Shown here: positions 25,097 through 33,129 of the stretch, piece after piece | How positions within the stretch are numbered: position 1 is the first letter of the stretch | Layout of the letters: the number at the start of each line of letters is the position of its first letter | Assembly: GCA_019248485.1 (NCBI GenBank) | Contig: JAEHGL010000010.1 | Span: 1 to 36,624 of the forward strand | Reading direction: 5' to 3' | DNA: 36,624 nucleotides | Origin: Candidatus Komeilibacteria bacterium S5_K13 | GTDB taxonomy: Bacteria; Patescibacteriota; Patescibacteriia; UBA1558; S5-K13 | Translations under genes and position numbers: made by a program | Notes under the pieces: model-generated | The model's database searches: none | The model's input: only the letters and a program-made list of their open reading frames with translations | Told to the model about the DNA's origin: nothing

Positions 25097-25170
25097 TCGG
25101 GGATCGTCTAATGGTAGGACAACAGGTTCTGGTCCTGTTTATCTGGGTTCAAATCCTGGTCCCCGAGCCA
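25097..25170 (+). tRNA. tRNA-Gln (CTG), integration site of the element to the right
   Basis: Acceptor TCGGGGA pairs perfectly with TCCCCGA. The anticodon stem ACAGG/CCTGT encloses the loop TTCTGGT (anticodon CTG). The T loop contains TTCAAAT, discriminator G, and CCA is encoded at 25168-25170. The serine recombinase gene on the other strand runs through bases 25108-25170, so the tRNA and the recombinase C-terminus share DNA. Confidence 0.95.
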
Positions 25171-26637
25171 ATTAGGGTTATCAGCTAGTTCTAGGACTAA
25201 GTTGAATGGAGAACGCAAGGTAAAACCTAGTGTTTTTTCATTTAAGGTCGGGTTCTGAAGTATGTAAGTTAAAAAAGTTCTTTTTCCTGCAATATCAGAA
25301 CTCTTTTCAAATATAGTTTTAGCTCTACGTGCTACAGATATTACTATAGCAACTGTGGTTTGATAATTATAATCTGCATTTTGATATTCAGACATTTCTA
25401 TTTCAAGAAGCTCCATTTTATCTTTAAGCTCTTGATGTTTTTTGTCATATACATCCTTAGTAATACTCTTGTCTATAAGAACATCTAATAAGTTATTTTG
25501 TTTTTCTTGTATGCTATCATAAGCATTTCTTATTCTACTTATTTGTGCTTTATGAAAAACGGCTTCTGCTTCTGTGCTTTTTCTTAATTCAGCAACAAGT
25601 TTTTCTTGTGTGTCTTCTGAAATGCTTCCAAATCGCTCTAAAACCTCATAAACGGGCTTTAGCAATTCGTTTTCGTTAATATATACCTTTTTACATACGC
25701 CCTTAGCATTTGTGCAAGAATAAAGATTATAGACCAATCCACTTGGTTTTTTGTGTTGCTCAGGAGACATAGAACAACCGCAATTTGGACATTTAAGAAG
25801 TCCTTTGAATATAAAATCTCTAGAGTGTGATTTATATGGTAATTTTTTACGTTGGGAGCGTATTTCTTTACATTTATCAAAAAGCTCTCTTGTTATAAGT
25901 TTTGGATATTTATGAATATATGGACCATATTTGGATATAGCCATACCACAAAAAAAGCTGTCTCTTAATATATTATCGATACAACTTTTAGATAATTTAT
26001 TTCCTTTTATAGACCTTAAACCAAGTCTTGTAATTTTTGTTCTTATTGTTTCTAGCGAGTGTTGATTTGTAGCATATAATTCAAACATTTTTTGTATTAA
26101 ATATGCTCTGTCTGGGTCAATTATTATGTCTTTATTAAATCTTAAATATCCCAAACGAACTCTACCCGTCCATTCACCATTTCGTCTCTTTTGTTCAAAC
26201 GCTCTTTTGACATTATCGCTAATAGCATCAGAATAGTATTTTGCTAAACCCAACTTCATCCCAAAAGCAAATTTATCTCCTGCCGACATTTTATCGTCTA
26301 TAACTTGCCCGTCTGATACAAAATGTAATTCAATTTTATCTCCAATAGCCATTTCATAAAGTTTGGCAACTCTTTTGTCAAAAATGTTTCTAGATAATCT
26401 GTCAACTTTATCAAAACAAACAGCGACCTTCTCTTTTTTAGAAACTTTTTCTATATATTCCATTATTTCATCAAAAGTATCTCTTTTTAATTTATATGCA
26501 CTTTCTATAAAATCAAATTCTTTTATTATTTCGAAATGTTTATTTTTACAATAACTATTCATTCTAAAGCTTTGGGCTTCAGGAGAATTTTCTTTTTGGT
26601 CTTCACTTGATACTCTTGAAATGTTTATTGCTTTCAT
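25108..26637 (-). CDS. Large serine recombinase (integrase)
   Basis: 509 aa. The N-terminal resolvase domain (about 1-140) has the catalytic serine in NISRVSSEDQ (S10 or S11) and DKVDRLSRNIFDKR with the catalytic arginines. The recombinase domain follows (about 150-260), starting near KRAFEQKRRNGEWTGRVRLG. A zinc ribbon (CPNCGCSMS, about 285-315) and a coiled-coil region (about 350-420) complete it. It cuts and joins DNA between attachment sites. The last 20 residues (LGDQDLNPDKQDQNLLSYH region) are encoded by the antisense strand of tRNA-Gln, so the natural end changes on excision. It is the last gene of the restriction-modification operon, 4 nt after the endonuclease stop. Confidence 0.93.
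   Translation of the reverse strand: MKAINISRVSSEDQKENSPEAQSFRMNSYCKNKHFEIIKEFDFIESAYKLKRDTFDEIMEYIEKVSKKEKVAVCFDKVDRLSRNIFDKRVAKLYEMAIGDKIELHFVSDGQVIDDKMSAGDKFAFGMKLGLAKYYSDAISDNVKRAFEQKRRNGEWTGRVRLGYLRFNKDIIIDPDRAYLIQKMFELYATNQHSLETIRTKITRLGLRSIKGNKLSKSCIDNILRDSFFCGMAISKYGPYIHKYPKLITRELFDKCKEIRSQRKKLPYKSHSRDFIFKGLLKCPNCGCSMSPEQHKKPSGLVYNLYSCTNAKGVCKKVYINENELLKPVYEVLERFGSISEDTQEKLVAELRKSTEAEAVFHKAQISRIRNAYDSIQEKQNNLLDVLIDKSITKDVYDKKHQELKDKMELLEIEMSEYQNADYNYQTTVAIVISVARRAKTIFEKSSDIAGKRTFLTYILQNPTLNEKTLGFTLRSPFNLVLELADNPNWLGDQDLNPDKQDQNLLSYH
26189..26248 (-). repeat. 60-nt near-identical block, copy in the full recombinase
   Basis: These 60 bases match 29536-29595 at 59 of 60 positions, in the same orientation. 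They encode the shared LAKYYSDAISDNVKRAFEQK stretch of both recombinase proteins. The genes diverge sharply on both sides of the block. Confidence 0.95.
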
Positions 26638-26641
26638 AGAA

Positions 26642-27724
26642 CTATTTTGTAAATCTAACTTGTAAATTTAATTTGATGAAATAGCGACCATTTTCTTTGA
26701 TAATTTTTCCTATACCATATCTGGTTGTGCTTGGTGTGTCAAGCTTTGTATTTTTCAAAAGATATTCTTGAAAATCTTCTAAGTTGTATAAATAATAACA
26801 AAGAACATCGCCGTCTTTCTTTACTAACAAAAAACCACCTAAGCTTGTAAGTATCCCGTTCCAGTTAGTATTTGGCATCATTCCTAAAGCCATAATACTA
26901 AGAAACTCTTTGATTTTATGAATAGGTTGTTTATTTTGCTTATTGGTATCAGGAAAGTTCAAAACAACTAACTCCGAAAGATTACTTGCACCTCGTGAGT
27001 AATATGACAAAAGTATTTTTGAAATATATATTGGCAAATTACTGTCAATCAAAGAAAGATTGTTTTGGAATATTTCACTATCAACTTTATAAAAAACTAT
27101 ATTGAACCCCAAACTTTCTAATAGATTGATGTTATCTTTTACATTTTTGTCGTGTAGTTTAGGTAATTTTTTAGGGACACTCATATCATTATCAAGCACC
27201 TCAAAAGTAAAGTTTGTTGCTTTTGATGCGTTTATAAGTGTTGAAGGACTACCAAGTTGTGATTTTATACTAAATCCAACCTCGGGACTTGGTTTATTAG
27301 TTTTGACATCAAGTATTACTAAATCCAAATCCTTTTTATCAAAACTTGATGCCTTGATAACGTCTTTTTGTAAAACTTGCATCATTTCTGAACCAGCATC
27401 CAAGGAAAAAGCTCGTCCTTCATTTTTTACTGACAAACTCTCAAACATTCTTTTCAGAATGCTTTGTATTTTTTTAACTTTTATTGATGCTATCTTATTT
27501 GTGCCTACAAAAATATCAATGACTTCATTCTTTATTTCATAAACCATTCTTTCTTTTCCAATTTTTTCAGCAAAAATTATTTTCAAAACTTTATAAAATA
27601 AATCTTTTTTAATATTTTGGTTCTTATCAGCACCATAAGCACCACCATTTGCTAAGAGAAAAGCTAATGCGTATAACTCGCTCCATTCTCCAGTATTGCC
27701 TGTTGTTTCTTTTTGATTATTCAT
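26642..27724 (-). CDS. HpaII-like type II restriction endonuclease
   Basis: 360 aa, close to the usual length of HpaII, which cuts CCGG. The opening motif TGEWSELYALAFLLANGG (11-28) and AYGADKNQ are typical. The central block SPEVGFSIKSQLGSPSTLIN (146-165) followed by ASKATNF is the most conserved part of the family and contains the PD-(D/E)XK-like E148 and K154. It overlaps the methyltransferase gene by 8 nt and is 4 nt from the recombinase, so all three are likely translated from one message. Target specificity (CCGG) is inferred from family resemblance, not shown. Confidence 0.8.
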   Translation of the reverse strand: MNNQKETTGNTGEWSELYALAFLLANGGAYGADKNQNIKKDLFYKVLKIIFAEKIGKERMVYEIKNEVIDIFVGTNKIASIKVKKIQSILKRMFESLSVKNEGRAFSLDAGSEMMQVLQKDVIKASSFDKKDLDLVILDVKTNKPSPEVGFSIKSQLGSPSTLINASKATNFTFEVLDNDMSVPKKLPKLHDKNVKDNINLLESLGFNIVFYKVDSEIFQNNLSLIDSNLPIYISKILLSYYSRGASNLSELVVLNFPDTNKQNKQPIHKIKEFLSIMALGMMPNTNWNGILTSLGGFLLVKKDGDVLCYYLYNLEDFQEYLLKNTKLDTPSTTRYGIGKIIKENGRYFIKLNLQVRFTK

Positions 27725-28631
27725 AGTATTTTTCTAATGCTTCAATTATTTTTTGTGCATAGTCTTGTATCCCATAAATAGCAACACTATTACCTAACTG
27801 TTTCATTGCTTGATTATTTGAAACTGGGAAAATAAAATTATCAGGGAGCCCCTGCATTTTCTTTCCTTCTTTTGGGGTAATTCGTCTGACTTTGTCATCT
27901 ACTAAATAACTATCCCAATTTCTTCTATCTGTAATCTTTGAACCCTTACCGCCAACTCTAAGAGTAAATCCAATATCTTTATTTACTTTTGCACCTTCGA
28001 ATACATCTGACATAGTAAAGGCGAGTGGTCTTTTTTTAGGAAACTCAAAGGGTATTTTTTTATTCCTAAAACCAATCATAAATAAACGAGGGCGATTTTG
28101 AGGTAGTCCGTGGTCTGATGCTTTTACAATGTTGTGATAAAGAGAATATCCAAGCTTTTCTGTTAAAACTTTTTTGATTGTTTCAAAAGTTTTTCCATTG
28201 TCGTGAGCGTAAAGATGTCTAACATTTTCTAAAAAAAATGCTTTTGGTTTTTTGACACGAATAATTTCAGCGATATCGTAAAACAATGTCCCCCTTGTGT
28301 CATTGAAACCTTTTTTGAAACCTGCCTGACTAAATGGCTGACAAGGAAAACCGCCAGTCAAAATATCAAAATCTGGTATGTCTTTTTTGCTTATTTTTGT
28401 TATATCGCCAACGAAGTTTCCTGAGCTAAACATTTCGGGGCTAATTTTTTCAAAGTTTTTCTGATAAGTTTTTCTTGCTGGTTCATCCCACTCTGATGCA
28501 AACACACATTTAGCCCCAACATTATGAAAAGCAAGATGAAATCCACCTATTCCTGCAAATAAATCAATAAAAGTAAACTTTTTAACTTTCTTTTTATTGG
28601 ATTTATCTGTCTTAGTGGTTTTTGTTTTCAT
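27717..28631 (-). CDS. C5-cytosine DNA methyltransferase (M.HpaII-like)
   Basis: 304 aa when started at the ATG at 28631; the frame stays open further upstream but overlaps the HTH gene there. It methylates cytosine C5 using SAM. Motif I FIDLFAGIGGFHLAF (21-35), motif IV with the catalytic C97 in TGGFPCQPFSQAG, ENVRHL (135-140), QNRPRLFMIG (178-187), the target-recognition part (about 190-250) with GFTLRVGGKG and RRNWDSYLVDD, motif IX RRITPKEGKKMQGLPD and motif X QLGNSVAIYG are all present. Only 1 nt separates it from the HTH gene stop. It should protect DNA from the adjacent HpaII-like endonuclease. No strong Shine-Dalgarno site is visible. Confidence 0.93.
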   Translation of the reverse strand: MKTKTTKTDKSNKKKVKKFTFIDLFAGIGGFHLAFHNVGAKCVFASEWDEPARKTYQKNFEKISPEMFSSGNFVGDITKISKKDIPDFDILTGGFPCQPFSQAGFKKGFNDTRGTLFYDIAEIIRVKKPKAFFLENVRHLYAHDNGKTFETIKKVLTEKLGYSLYHNIVKASDHGLPQNRPRLFMIGFRNKKIPFEFPKKRPLAFTMSDVFEGAKVNKDIGFTLRVGGKGSKITDRRNWDSYLVDDKVRRITPKEGKKMQGLPDNFIFPVSNNQAMKQLGNSVAIYGIQDYAQKIIEALEKYYE

Positions 28632-28632
28632 A

Positions 28633-28812
28633 TCATTTTGTTTTAACACTGTTAAGAAAGTTATTAAATTCATTTTTATCAATTCTAAATTCTCTCCCAA
28701 TTTTGTATGCTTTTAATCGTTTAGCTTTTATATATCGATAAATCGTCATAATGTTTACATCTAACAATTTAGCTAAGTCTTCCGCCCTATAAAACTCTTT
28801 TTCTTTTATCAT
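28633..28812 (-). CDS. Excisionase-like HTH protein
   Basis: 59 aa, not covered by long-ORF searches. It reads MIKEKEFYRAEDLAKLLDVN, then IMTIYRYIKAKRLKAYKIGR and a short FRIDKNEFNNFLNSVKTK tail. This is the compact helix-turn-helix_17 (MerR/Xis-like) fold: FYRAEDLAKLLDV forms the first helices, TIYRYIKAKRLKAYKIGREF the recognition helix and wing. Such proteins often act as recombination directionality factors for integrases or as small repressors of neighbouring genes, including controllers of R-M systems. Its stop is 1 nt before the methyltransferase ATG, so the proteins are likely coupled. Either role is possible here. Confidence 0.8.
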   Translation of the reverse strand: MIKEKEFYRAEDLAKLLDVNIMTIYRYIKAKRLKAYKIGREFRIDKNEFNNFLNSVKTK

Positions 28813-28872: not shown

Positions 28873-29166
28873 TTATTTCATTGTTGAGATTAGTATTTCT
28901 CTAAATATCTTTTTCTTTTCTGCCATTGTTCTATCTACATTATCTTGCATAATCGTTGCATAGCAATTAGCTATATGCTCCCAGATAATAAGTTCATTTT
29001 CTGGATGCAAGTCTCTTTGAAAATTATTTATAGCTTCTTCAAGTGAAGACGTTTCTACTTCTCGTAAAATTTCTTTATACTTTTGAACTCTAAAGATAAA
29101 TCCTTCTGGTAATATATCGTCTCTAACTTTTCCTAATTTTATATTAAGTGTTTTAATTTTTTTCAT
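28873..29166 (-). CDS. Hypothetical protein, 97 aa
   Basis: 97-aa, mainly helical and charged protein with a KIKTLNIKLGKVRDDILPEG start, then RVQKYKEILREVETSSLEEA and an IWEHIANCYATIMQDNVDRT region. No signal, membrane helix or recognised domain is seen. Its ATG lies 11 nt after the truncated recombinase stop and it precedes the HTH gene by 60 nt, so it belongs to the same minus-strand series. Function unknown. Confidence 0.65.
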   Translation of the reverse strand: MKKIKTLNIKLGKVRDDILPEGFIFRVQKYKEILREVETSSLEEAINNFQRDLHPENELIIWEHIANCYATIMQDNVDRTMAEKKKIFREILISTMK

Positions 29167-29177
29167 CTTTTTAGTTT

Positions 29178-29651
29178 TTAATTATTAGCTTTTTTAATAT
29201 AGAACATTTTCTTTTGACATTTATCAAATACATCTTTAGTAATAAATGTTTCATATTGATGCATATATGGACTATGTTTTCTTGATGAGACTAGACCAAT
29301 ATAAAAAGTATTTTCTAGAATTTTTTTTATTACATTAAGAGGTAGATATTTATTGCTCAATTTTATTATTCTATAAACATCTTGTATTGAATTATTTTTG
29401 TTTGAATATAAAGCAAAAATCTTTTTTACTAATTTTGATTTCTTTCTATCTGGTATTAGTATTTTCCTTTTCTTACTGGTATGAATATATCTATAGCCAA
29501 AAGGTGGCAATCCTATAAATTCGCCATTTTGTCTTTTTTGTTCAAATGCTCTTTTGACATTATCGCTAATAGCATCAGAATAGTATTTTGCTAAAGCTAT
29601 TCTAATATTGTCTTGAAATTGTTCAACTGCACTTTTTTTGTTTACTTTCAT
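29178..29651 (-). CDS. Recombinase-domain protein lacking the catalytic resolvase domain
   Basis: 157 aa that correspond to the middle of a large serine recombinase. The first 20 residues (MKVNKKSAVEQFQDNIRIAL) are followed by AKYYSDAISDNVKRAFEQKR and NGEFIGLPPFGYRY, then IKKILENTFYIGLVSSRKHS, the pattern of the recombinase DNA-binding domain. The N-terminal serine domain, the zinc ribbon and the coiled coil are all absent. It is in an intact frame with the rep gene (4-nt ATGA overlap), so it may be expressed, either as a regulator or DNA-binding modulator of the full recombinase, or as a decayed gene. Confidence 0.7.
   Translation of the reverse strand: MKVNKKSAVEQFQDNIRIALAKYYSDAISDNVKRAFEQKRQNGEFIGLPPFGYRYIHTSKKRKILIPDRKKSKLVKKIFALYSNKNNSIQDVYRIIKLSNKYLPLNVIKKILENTFYIGLVSSRKHSPYMHQYETFITKDVFDKCQKKMFYIKKANN
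29536..29595 (-). repeat. 60-nt near-identical block, copy in the short recombinase
   Basis: This block matches 26189-26248 with one mismatch (C/T), while the sequences on each side of it are only loosely alike. The two copies are direct repeats about 3.35 kb apart. Confidence 0.95.
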
Positions 29652-30754
29652 ATTTTTTTAGTTTTATATGGTTTATAATTTTCTAACGCTTCGTCTATCT
29701 GTGAAACCCAATCTCTAATTCTATTTTTAGTGATTAGTTCACTAGATTGTTTTAGGTCTTTTGTTATACGATACCAAGTCCTATCTCTAGACCTTTTTGT
29801 AATAATAGTCCTAAGTTGTCTCATTCCATTTTCATCCTTAGCAAGTAAAAAAAGTCCTAATAAATATACAGCTTGTTTGGGCTTTAATTTTTTATCAGCC
29901 AAGAATAAGGTCTGCAATATATCTTTCAAGCTTAAGGATATTGAAAATAATCCAAGATTACGTTCTTTTATAAGTTTTTTCCAATAACTCCCAACAATCT
30001 CTTTACTCATTTTTGTATTAAAGATTTGTTTGAAAGTTGGATTTTTTTCATAACCTAAACTTTGTAAAAGTTTATTTAGTTTTTGCTTATGATTTATTCT
30101 AACTTCAAAACGTATTATTTCTTGCATTTCTTCTTTTTTATACAGCTCATCAAATAGACTTCTTTGATAAGTTGTTTGTTCTTTATCAATTGCACGTTTT
30201 TTGCCTTTATTTAAGTCAGCTATCTTATCATAAATAATAAGTTGATGTGCTGTTGTATGAGCATATAAACTTTGCCCATCATTTATGTATCTTGCCTTAG
30301 CGAAATCAAAACTTTTTCTTAAATCAACCTTATTCATTTCTGAAATTAAATAATTAGCCGTATATCCGTCTTTAAGTAAGATATTTTTTGAAAAATGAAC
30401 TGAACTTACTGAGGCGTTTTGAAGAACTACTTTGAAAACTCTTACTCCCATAATCTTTAATCTTTCCTGTAAAACTTCAATTATTTCCGAGAAGTCCTTT
30501 TCTTCTAATTCATCCAAATTATTCTGATATAGTAATTTGGGAGCAGAAAACTCTATACGAACAGCATCTTGTGAAAATTTTCTTCTATAGCCCGTAAGTC
30601 TTGGAAAGTATTTTCCTGTTTTCTTTTCGGCAACGCTAGGATTACGAACATATTTTTCATACTGACTTGTTTTGGAATATAGCTCCCAACTAGATACTCC
30701 CGATAGATAGCTCATATTTGCTTTTGGTATCAAAAGACATATTGTATCAATCAT
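29648..30754 (-). CDS. Phage/plasmid-type replication initiation protein
   Basis: 368 aa. The N-terminus MIDTICLLIPKANMSYLSGV, then KTGKYFPRLTGYRRKFSQDA and AVRIEFSAPKLLYQNNLDEL, ASVSSVHFSKNILLKDGYTA and FEVRINHKQKLNKLLQSLGY, match the pattern of Rep proteins related to the gene II/CRI protein of filamentous phages and to rolling-circle plasmid Reps. The C-terminus is basic and helical (LITKNRIRDWVSQIDEALEN). I do not see a clean HUH motif and give no catalytic residues. The gene begins inside the preceding 54-aa ORF (8-nt overlap) and ends in a 4-nt overlap with the short recombinase. This suggests the element once replicated, or still does, as a plasmid. Confidence 0.65.
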   Translation of the reverse strand: MIDTICLLIPKANMSYLSGVSSWELYSKTSQYEKYVRNPSVAEKKTGKYFPRLTGYRRKFSQDAVRIEFSAPKLLYQNNLDELEEKDFSEIIEVLQERLKIMGVRVFKVVLQNASVSSVHFSKNILLKDGYTANYLISEMNKVDLRKSFDFAKARYINDGQSLYAHTTAHQLIIYDKIADLNKGKKRAIDKEQTTYQRSLFDELYKKEEMQEIIRFEVRINHKQKLNKLLQSLGYEKNPTFKQIFNTKMSKEIVGSYWKKLIKERNLGLFSISLSLKDILQTLFLADKKLKPKQAVYLLGLFLLAKDENGMRQLRTIITKRSRDRTWYRITKDLKQSSELITKNRIRDWVSQIDEALENYKPYKTKKI

Positions 30755-32937: not shown

Positions 32938-33129
32938 ATGTTATCAAATGAACAAATAGAAAAATATCAGGCAATTTATAAAAAATACTATGGAAAAGAA
33001 ATTAGTCGAGAAGAAGCGTATGAACAAGGTATTAAATTTATAAGGCTTATAAAATTGATTTATAAGCCTATGACGAAAGAAGAATATCAAATTTTACAAA
33101 AAAGAAGAGAGGAAATAAATAATCAGTAA
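32938..33129 (+). CDS. Small conserved-type protein, 63 aa
   Basis: 63 aa: MLSNEQIEKYQAIYKKYYGK, EISREEAYEQGIKFIRLIKL, IYKPMTKEEYQILQKRREEI. It is helical with no signal. This pattern resembles a short protein I associate with CPR mobile regions (EISREEAYEQG then IYKPMT). The fold could be a small DNA-binding or antitoxin-like helix bundle, but no function can be assigned. It follows the membrane protein by 18 nt on the plus strand. Confidence 0.65.
   Translation: MLSNEQIEKYQAIYKKYYGKEISREEAYEQGIKFIRLIKLIYKPMTKEEYQILQKRREEINNQ

Follow-up and report, generated by a model that had tools for sequence, protein, structure and literature searches.

A stand-alone alpha-E and Recombinase-domain protein encoded in overlap with a replication gene, and its small Rep-adjacent relatives in integrative elements of Patescibacteria

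A short open reading frame that carries part of a large serine recombinase (LSR) and overlaps a replication gene raises the question whether it is a working gene or the remainder of a broken one and, if it works, on what its product acts. Such a frame is present in the window, i.e., the whole stretch of 36,624 nucleotides that was analysed, which belongs to a Patescibacteria-type host genome of 1.06 Mb (G000). The best explanation of the data is that its product is the Recombinase domain (RD)-bearing member of a small, Rep-coupled protein family stemming from helix alpha-E of the element's LSR. The features involved are as follows:

29178..29651 (-), short gene, stand-alone alpha-E plus Recombinase-domain protein of 157 aa (from ORF, Pfam, BLASTP, and AlphaFold2 analyses)
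29519..29651 (-), alpha-E part of the short gene, residues ~1-44, the conserved unit of the Rep-adjacent mini family
29181..29516 (-), RD part of the short gene, PF07508
29519..29595 (-), patch of 77 nt with 95% identity to the element's own LSR gene, putative gene-conversion tract
29648..30754 (-), Rep, probably of the G2P or phage-plasmid replication protein II/X type, its stop codon overlapping the first codon of the short gene (ATGA)
28873..29166 (-), o97, small protein encoded after the short gene and before xis, recurring in L042, L048, L049, L051, and L065
28837..28865 (-), xis promoter, also conserved in relatives, of the form TTGCAA-17-TATAAT and with a direct repeat (TGTAAAG) inside the spacer
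28633..28812 (-), xis, excisionase-type HTH_17 protein
25108..26637 (-), full-length LSR of the element, 509 aa (Resolvase, Recombinase, and zinc ribbon by Pfam), its 3' end overlapping tRNA-Gln
25097..25170 (+), tRNA-Gln, into which the end of the LSR gene extends; a probable attachment site

On the minus strand the order is o407, o54, Rep, the short gene, o97, the xis promoter, xis, a C5-methyltransferase with an HpaII-type endonuclease, and the LSR. The start codon of the short gene is ATG, and ATGA forms the 4-nt overlap with the Rep stop that the original prediction had described. The open frame measures 159 aa, leaving just 2 codons 5' of the ATG, and since 157 stop-free codons are expected by chance at 24% GC with P ~9e-8, the ORF is not a chance product. 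Scanning against Pfam returned PF07508 (Recombinase) only (E 1.9e-7, 31.7 bits, cut-off 21.1), without matches to Resolvase (PF00239) or Zn_ribbon_recom (PF13408), which bears out the earlier description of a recombinase DNA-binding part that lacks the serine domain and the zinc ribbon. By BLASTP the protein is 41% identical over 150 aa to residues 115-258 of the element's own LSR; the homology begins at approximately residue 115, the catalytic resolvase domain is absent, and the ORF stops right after the RD, without zinc beta-ribbon or coiled coil. Rather than being a random start, the first ~40 residues correspond to alpha-E, the long dimer and DNA-contact helix of recombinases. Lacking the catalytic and zinc domains, the protein does not belong to the functional LSRs.

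AlphaFold2 modelled the short protein with a pLDDT of 94.6 as a long helix at residues 8-41 (alpha-E) followed by the RD; the input alignment consisted mostly of LSR sequences, so the model may lean to the LSR fold. Comparison of the model by Foldseek and VIA-align ranked LSR-DNA complexes first (4kis_B, 9dxf, Bxb1, phiC31), with Z 15.0 over 122 aa at 2.0 A for 4kis_B and Z <4 for unrelated structures. A profile of the short protein gave no match among PDB sequences, and searching the genome contigs by peptide patterns yielded no close relatives.

The Rep protein of the window has no curated family match by itself, and its model found no match among PDB folds. Rep relatives match Phage_CRI (G2P, 1.9e-5, one family member) and rep_II_X (0.0074), and the Rep model matches an Inoviridae G2P (E 3.2e-6), on which basis Rep is treated, with moderate confidence, as a G2P-type initiator. 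In IMG/VR, a single-sequence query with Rep detected no relative, and an alignment query detected one fragment (L127).

Several further properties of these elements were recorded. Upstream of xis, most relatives among L047-L067 have a promoter with TTGxxA, a 17-bp spacer, and TATAAT, the spacer containing a direct repeat close to TGTAAAG-N3-TGTAAAG that probably serves as operator for Xis or for a different regulator of the element, and in several relatives a DnaA-box-like TT(A/G)TCCACT is located just upstream. The interval between xis and the LSR is a cargo slot with contents that differ per relative (window 26642-28700, L047 2892-4809, L050 9844-10515, L048 9658-11675), comprising the HpaII-type restriction-modification genes in the window and, in the relatives, different pairs of methyltransferase and nuclease or a membrane protein. 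LSR genes finish inside tRNA genes, Gln in the window (25097-25170) and Asn in the Magasanikbacteria element L038 (11356-11430), and the C-terminal LSR residues are thus antisense tRNA read as protein. Regarding the second att end, the tRNA-Gln region shares 9-10-mers but no long repeat with 31-34.5 kb. A 63-aa ORF at 32938-33129(+) of the window resembles by eye a small ORF just 5' of Rep in L032, with the motif YGKEISREEAYEQGIK.IRLI, and is possibly a member of another element-associated small protein family. Finally, LSR genes are split in two ORFs beside an intact Rep in L044 (14384-15725)/L075, L054 (11469-13054), L112, L114, and L124, which may reflect a frameshift, a stop, or an assembly error.

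Recurrence of the short form was assessed around Rep relatives drawn from 380 phylum genomes, 380 class genomes, and 80 GTDB contigs. Domain profiles detected a second stand-alone alpha-E plus RD protein in a Nomurabacteria element (L050; 185 aa), of which the gene shares 14 nt with Rep and the own full LSR lies 1.4 kb further, as well as ORFs consisting of alpha-E only in L047, L056, and L059; those of L051 and L052 were added by reading the gaps downstream of Rep. A profile of these seven minis, searched against the 13,722 small ORFs of all loci, revealed further elements, all with the ORF near Rep and some with it upstream. When the search was restricted to small ORFs no more than 500 bp from Rep, of which the 97 distinct elements have 525, the window being counted separately, 15 loci passed with E 3e-14 to 7e-20, as compared with 0.067 for the best of a ten-fold shuffled set. 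The mini family was defined as ORFs that lie no further than 500 bp from a G2P-type Rep and start with the alpha-E motif Y-x3-[IL]-S-[DE]-x-[IV]-[KR]-R, a definition that also describes the short gene of the window. Small ORFs starting with alpha-E thus stand beside Rep in 16/98 distinct Rep elements, window included, and a full recombinase was found elsewhere in the element in all 16; most Rep elements hold an LSR.

Ten of the 16 minis are positioned downstream of Rep and six upstream. Nine of the downstream copies overlap the Rep stop by 4-26 nt or abut it, the tenth (L065) being 359 bp away, and the upstream mini of L069 has a 4-nt overlap with Rep. The RD occurs only in the window and L050, 13 minis are alpha-E-only (40-63 aa), and the remaining one is a fusion with another small domain; in L065 (9497-9910) an alpha-E-like N-terminus is apparently joined to the o97 domain. 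The stand-alone form beside Rep, for which the original prediction had called, therefore recurs once with the RD and 13 times as alpha-E alone. Its emphasis on the DNA-binding middle holds for the window, where the RD is present, but the recurring unit is alpha-E, with the RD optional (absent from 14/16). A conserved 'LST...VKxxKV' C-terminus in the minis with alpha-E alone was discarded as a motif of the protein, since these residues are a translation of the xis promoter region.

Among the ORFs of the loci, the mini profile also matches the alpha-E helices of LSRs (E down to 5e-13), and nothing else. Across the 380 whole genomes, matches in short frames of <100 aa (G259, G373, G362, G013, G116, G085) all adjoin Rep, and most other matches are full LSRs; matches in frames of ~100-250 aa, part of which was inspected, represent other serine recombinases, broken LSRs, contig ends, and an unrelated protein. 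An 82-aa LSR relic distant from Rep was encountered in L165. The mini family gives weak matches to the C-terminal end of Resolvase in Pfam and PHROGs (E 0.01-0.05) and is without a clear model in either collection, and no description of a stand-alone alpha-E/RD protein was found in the open-access literature.

The short gene of the window displays a mosaic relation to its own LSR. Over 21 codons of alpha-E, 61/63 nt (97%) and 21/21 aa are identical, the next best LSR reaching 90%, and the rest of the gene shows about 40-60% nucleotide identity, with the exception of a stretch towards the 3' end (71-77%). Own mini and own LSR are 49-71% identical in six other elements, without any conversion-like patch. 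The occurrence of a 97% patch in an otherwise divergent gene suggests gene conversion, most simply a recent conversion tract, which would provide the short protein with exactly the alpha-E of its recombinase.

Whether the short ORF is maintained as a gene was addressed by codon position. Synonymous sites are saturated, and position-wise identity was used in place of dN/dS by NG86 and YN00. First and second codon positions are more conserved than third positions in all pairs, for example 0.60 versus 0.32 for the window and L050, which suggests that the frame was kept through saturating change. Moreover, a six-frame scan of 600 bp on each side of Rep in the 97 elements revealed LSR pieces of two kinds only, the intact N-terminus of a full LSR or other serine recombinase and pieces starting at alpha-E, and none starting in the catalytic or zinc part, so random decay of LSR genes fits poorly. 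The short forms of the window and L050 cluster on the tree (93/89; 76/65 in a smaller set); a separate origin of the two from their own LSRs was neither shown nor rejected (AU p 0.135 and 0.252). On the Rep tree, presence of the mini changes 12 times, indicating that it is often gained or lost and not essential. Judged from these patterns, the short ORF is probably a working gene. The earlier view that it is not a decayed gene is sustained by its recurrence beside Rep, and neither homologues of full length only nor short forms with frameshifts or stops were seen.

That the minis are leftovers of an ancestral Rep-LSR tandem, retained by chance after a second LSR and the cargo arrived, is nevertheless conceivable, as elements of more remote relationship (e.g., L078, L092, and L123) possess this tandem intact, many such elements having a full LSR directly after Rep, and as the minis vary fast, the two RD forms have long branches, and the shortest minis terminate within the xis promoter. 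We consider this unlikely, because each remnant has a start codon of its own, in most cases on the Rep stop, and opens with alpha-E, none has kept catalytic or zinc parts, six are upstream of Rep, and the frames are open despite saturated synonymous change, whereas true LSR relics (L169, L165) consist of several broken pieces or are distant from Rep. Highly improbable is that the short gene serves mainly as a sequence reservoir, a partner for gene conversion with the LSR in which swapping of alpha-E and RD would change att specificity: the mosaic of a 97% patch, a 71-77% 3' patch, and ~44% between them would suit it, but the six other elements lack such a patch and the RD, which sets specificity, is missing in most minis.

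A stronger rival is that the minis are small basic alpha-helical peptides from the replication operon that bind DNA or Rep and would act at the origin or on the copy control of Rep, with descent from alpha-E being mere history and the RD of the window and L050 adding sequence recognition. Strict linkage to Rep on either side, presumed translational coupling with its stop or start, and the basic C-termini of the minis are in line with such a Rep accessory factor. Moreover, similarity of minis to their own LSR, with the window left out, is not above that to other LSRs (p 0.095; 0.37 in the close clade), so co-variation of the two is unsupported outside the window, which keeps this alternative strong. 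On the other hand, the nearest sequence relatives of the minis are LSR alpha-E helices rather than Rep-associated proteins, the RD reads att sites, and all 16 elements contain an LSR, as most Rep elements do anyway. On balance, a role as Rep accessory factor appears somewhat unlikely.

It is quite possible that the short gene encodes an alpha-E/RD protein made together with Rep that would pair with, or compete against, the full LSR at the att sites. Oligomerisation of LSRs is through alpha-E (PMC3556126), which also forms the subunit-rotation interface, and alpha-E and the linker touch att DNA (PMC3783163). The short protein would be translated with Rep at the time of element replication; alpha-E, as dimer and rotation-interface helix, may mediate pairing of the protein with itself or the LSR, and the RD may sit on the inner part of the att half-sites. 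Having no serine, zinc ribbon, or coiled coil, the protein would enter inactive heterodimers or block att sites, and recombination would be held back during Rep activity, keeping replication and integration/excision apart. The alpha-E-only relatives would work through the helix alone. More doubtful is the generalisation to an undescribed class of LSR regulators, comprising alpha-E minis, some with an RD, that are co-translated with the replication initiator and would disable the integrase by hetero-dimerisation or att occupation during replication.

Action as a dominant regulator of the full recombinase, as originally proposed, thus appears plausible, because alpha-E is an oligomerisation helix and the window copy is identical to that of its LSR in 21/21 aa. 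It is unproven, because outside the window the minis do not follow the LSR of their element and because the linkage is with Rep rather than the LSR gene, which likewise argues against a pure LSR role. The six copies upstream of Rep, the missing RD in 14/16, and the patchy presence also count against the regulator reading. If this reading is true, integrative elements of Patescibacteria have turned the dimer helix of the integrase itself into an integrase switch, linked to replication through the overlap of genes, as a control route apart from RDFs, and the encoded alpha-E peptides are candidate brakes on serine integrases in genome engineering. If the Rep-accessory reading is true, the minis are tiny replication factors of a new sort, the evolutionary origin of which is clear. 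Under either reading, the family is absent from the Pfam and PHROGs scans made here.

Comparison with known systems places the short protein as an LSR-derived, Rep-coupled accessory protein by our rating, one that matches no described RDF. It shares the alpha-E plus RD fold and conserved RD residues with the C-terminal region of LSRs (A118/LI integrase, 4kis and 6dnw; PF07508), and differs from that integrase in being a separate gene coupled to Rep, without catalytic serine domain, zinc ribbon, or coiled coil. Despite its overall identity to the full LSR of the same element and the near-identical stretch in alpha-E, it is no simple truncation of this LSR, as its RD is only ~33% identical and the short form groups with that of L050. 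The RDFs of serine integrases (e.g., phiC31 gp3) are likewise small proteins of phages or elements and modulate an LSR, as hypothesised for the short protein; these RDFs are not known to descend from the integrase. The zinc domain of LSRs has been tied to discrimination between attP and attB (PMC3783163), and phiC31 gp3 reportedly works via this domain (PMC5814800), which is missing from the short protein. The Rep beside the short gene falls near the replication protein II/X family of filamentous phages and plasmids (G2P, Phage_CRI). In filamentous phages, the small gene downstream of G2P encodes a ssDNA-binding beta-barrel, whereas here that neighbourhood is occupied by an alpha-E helix protein.
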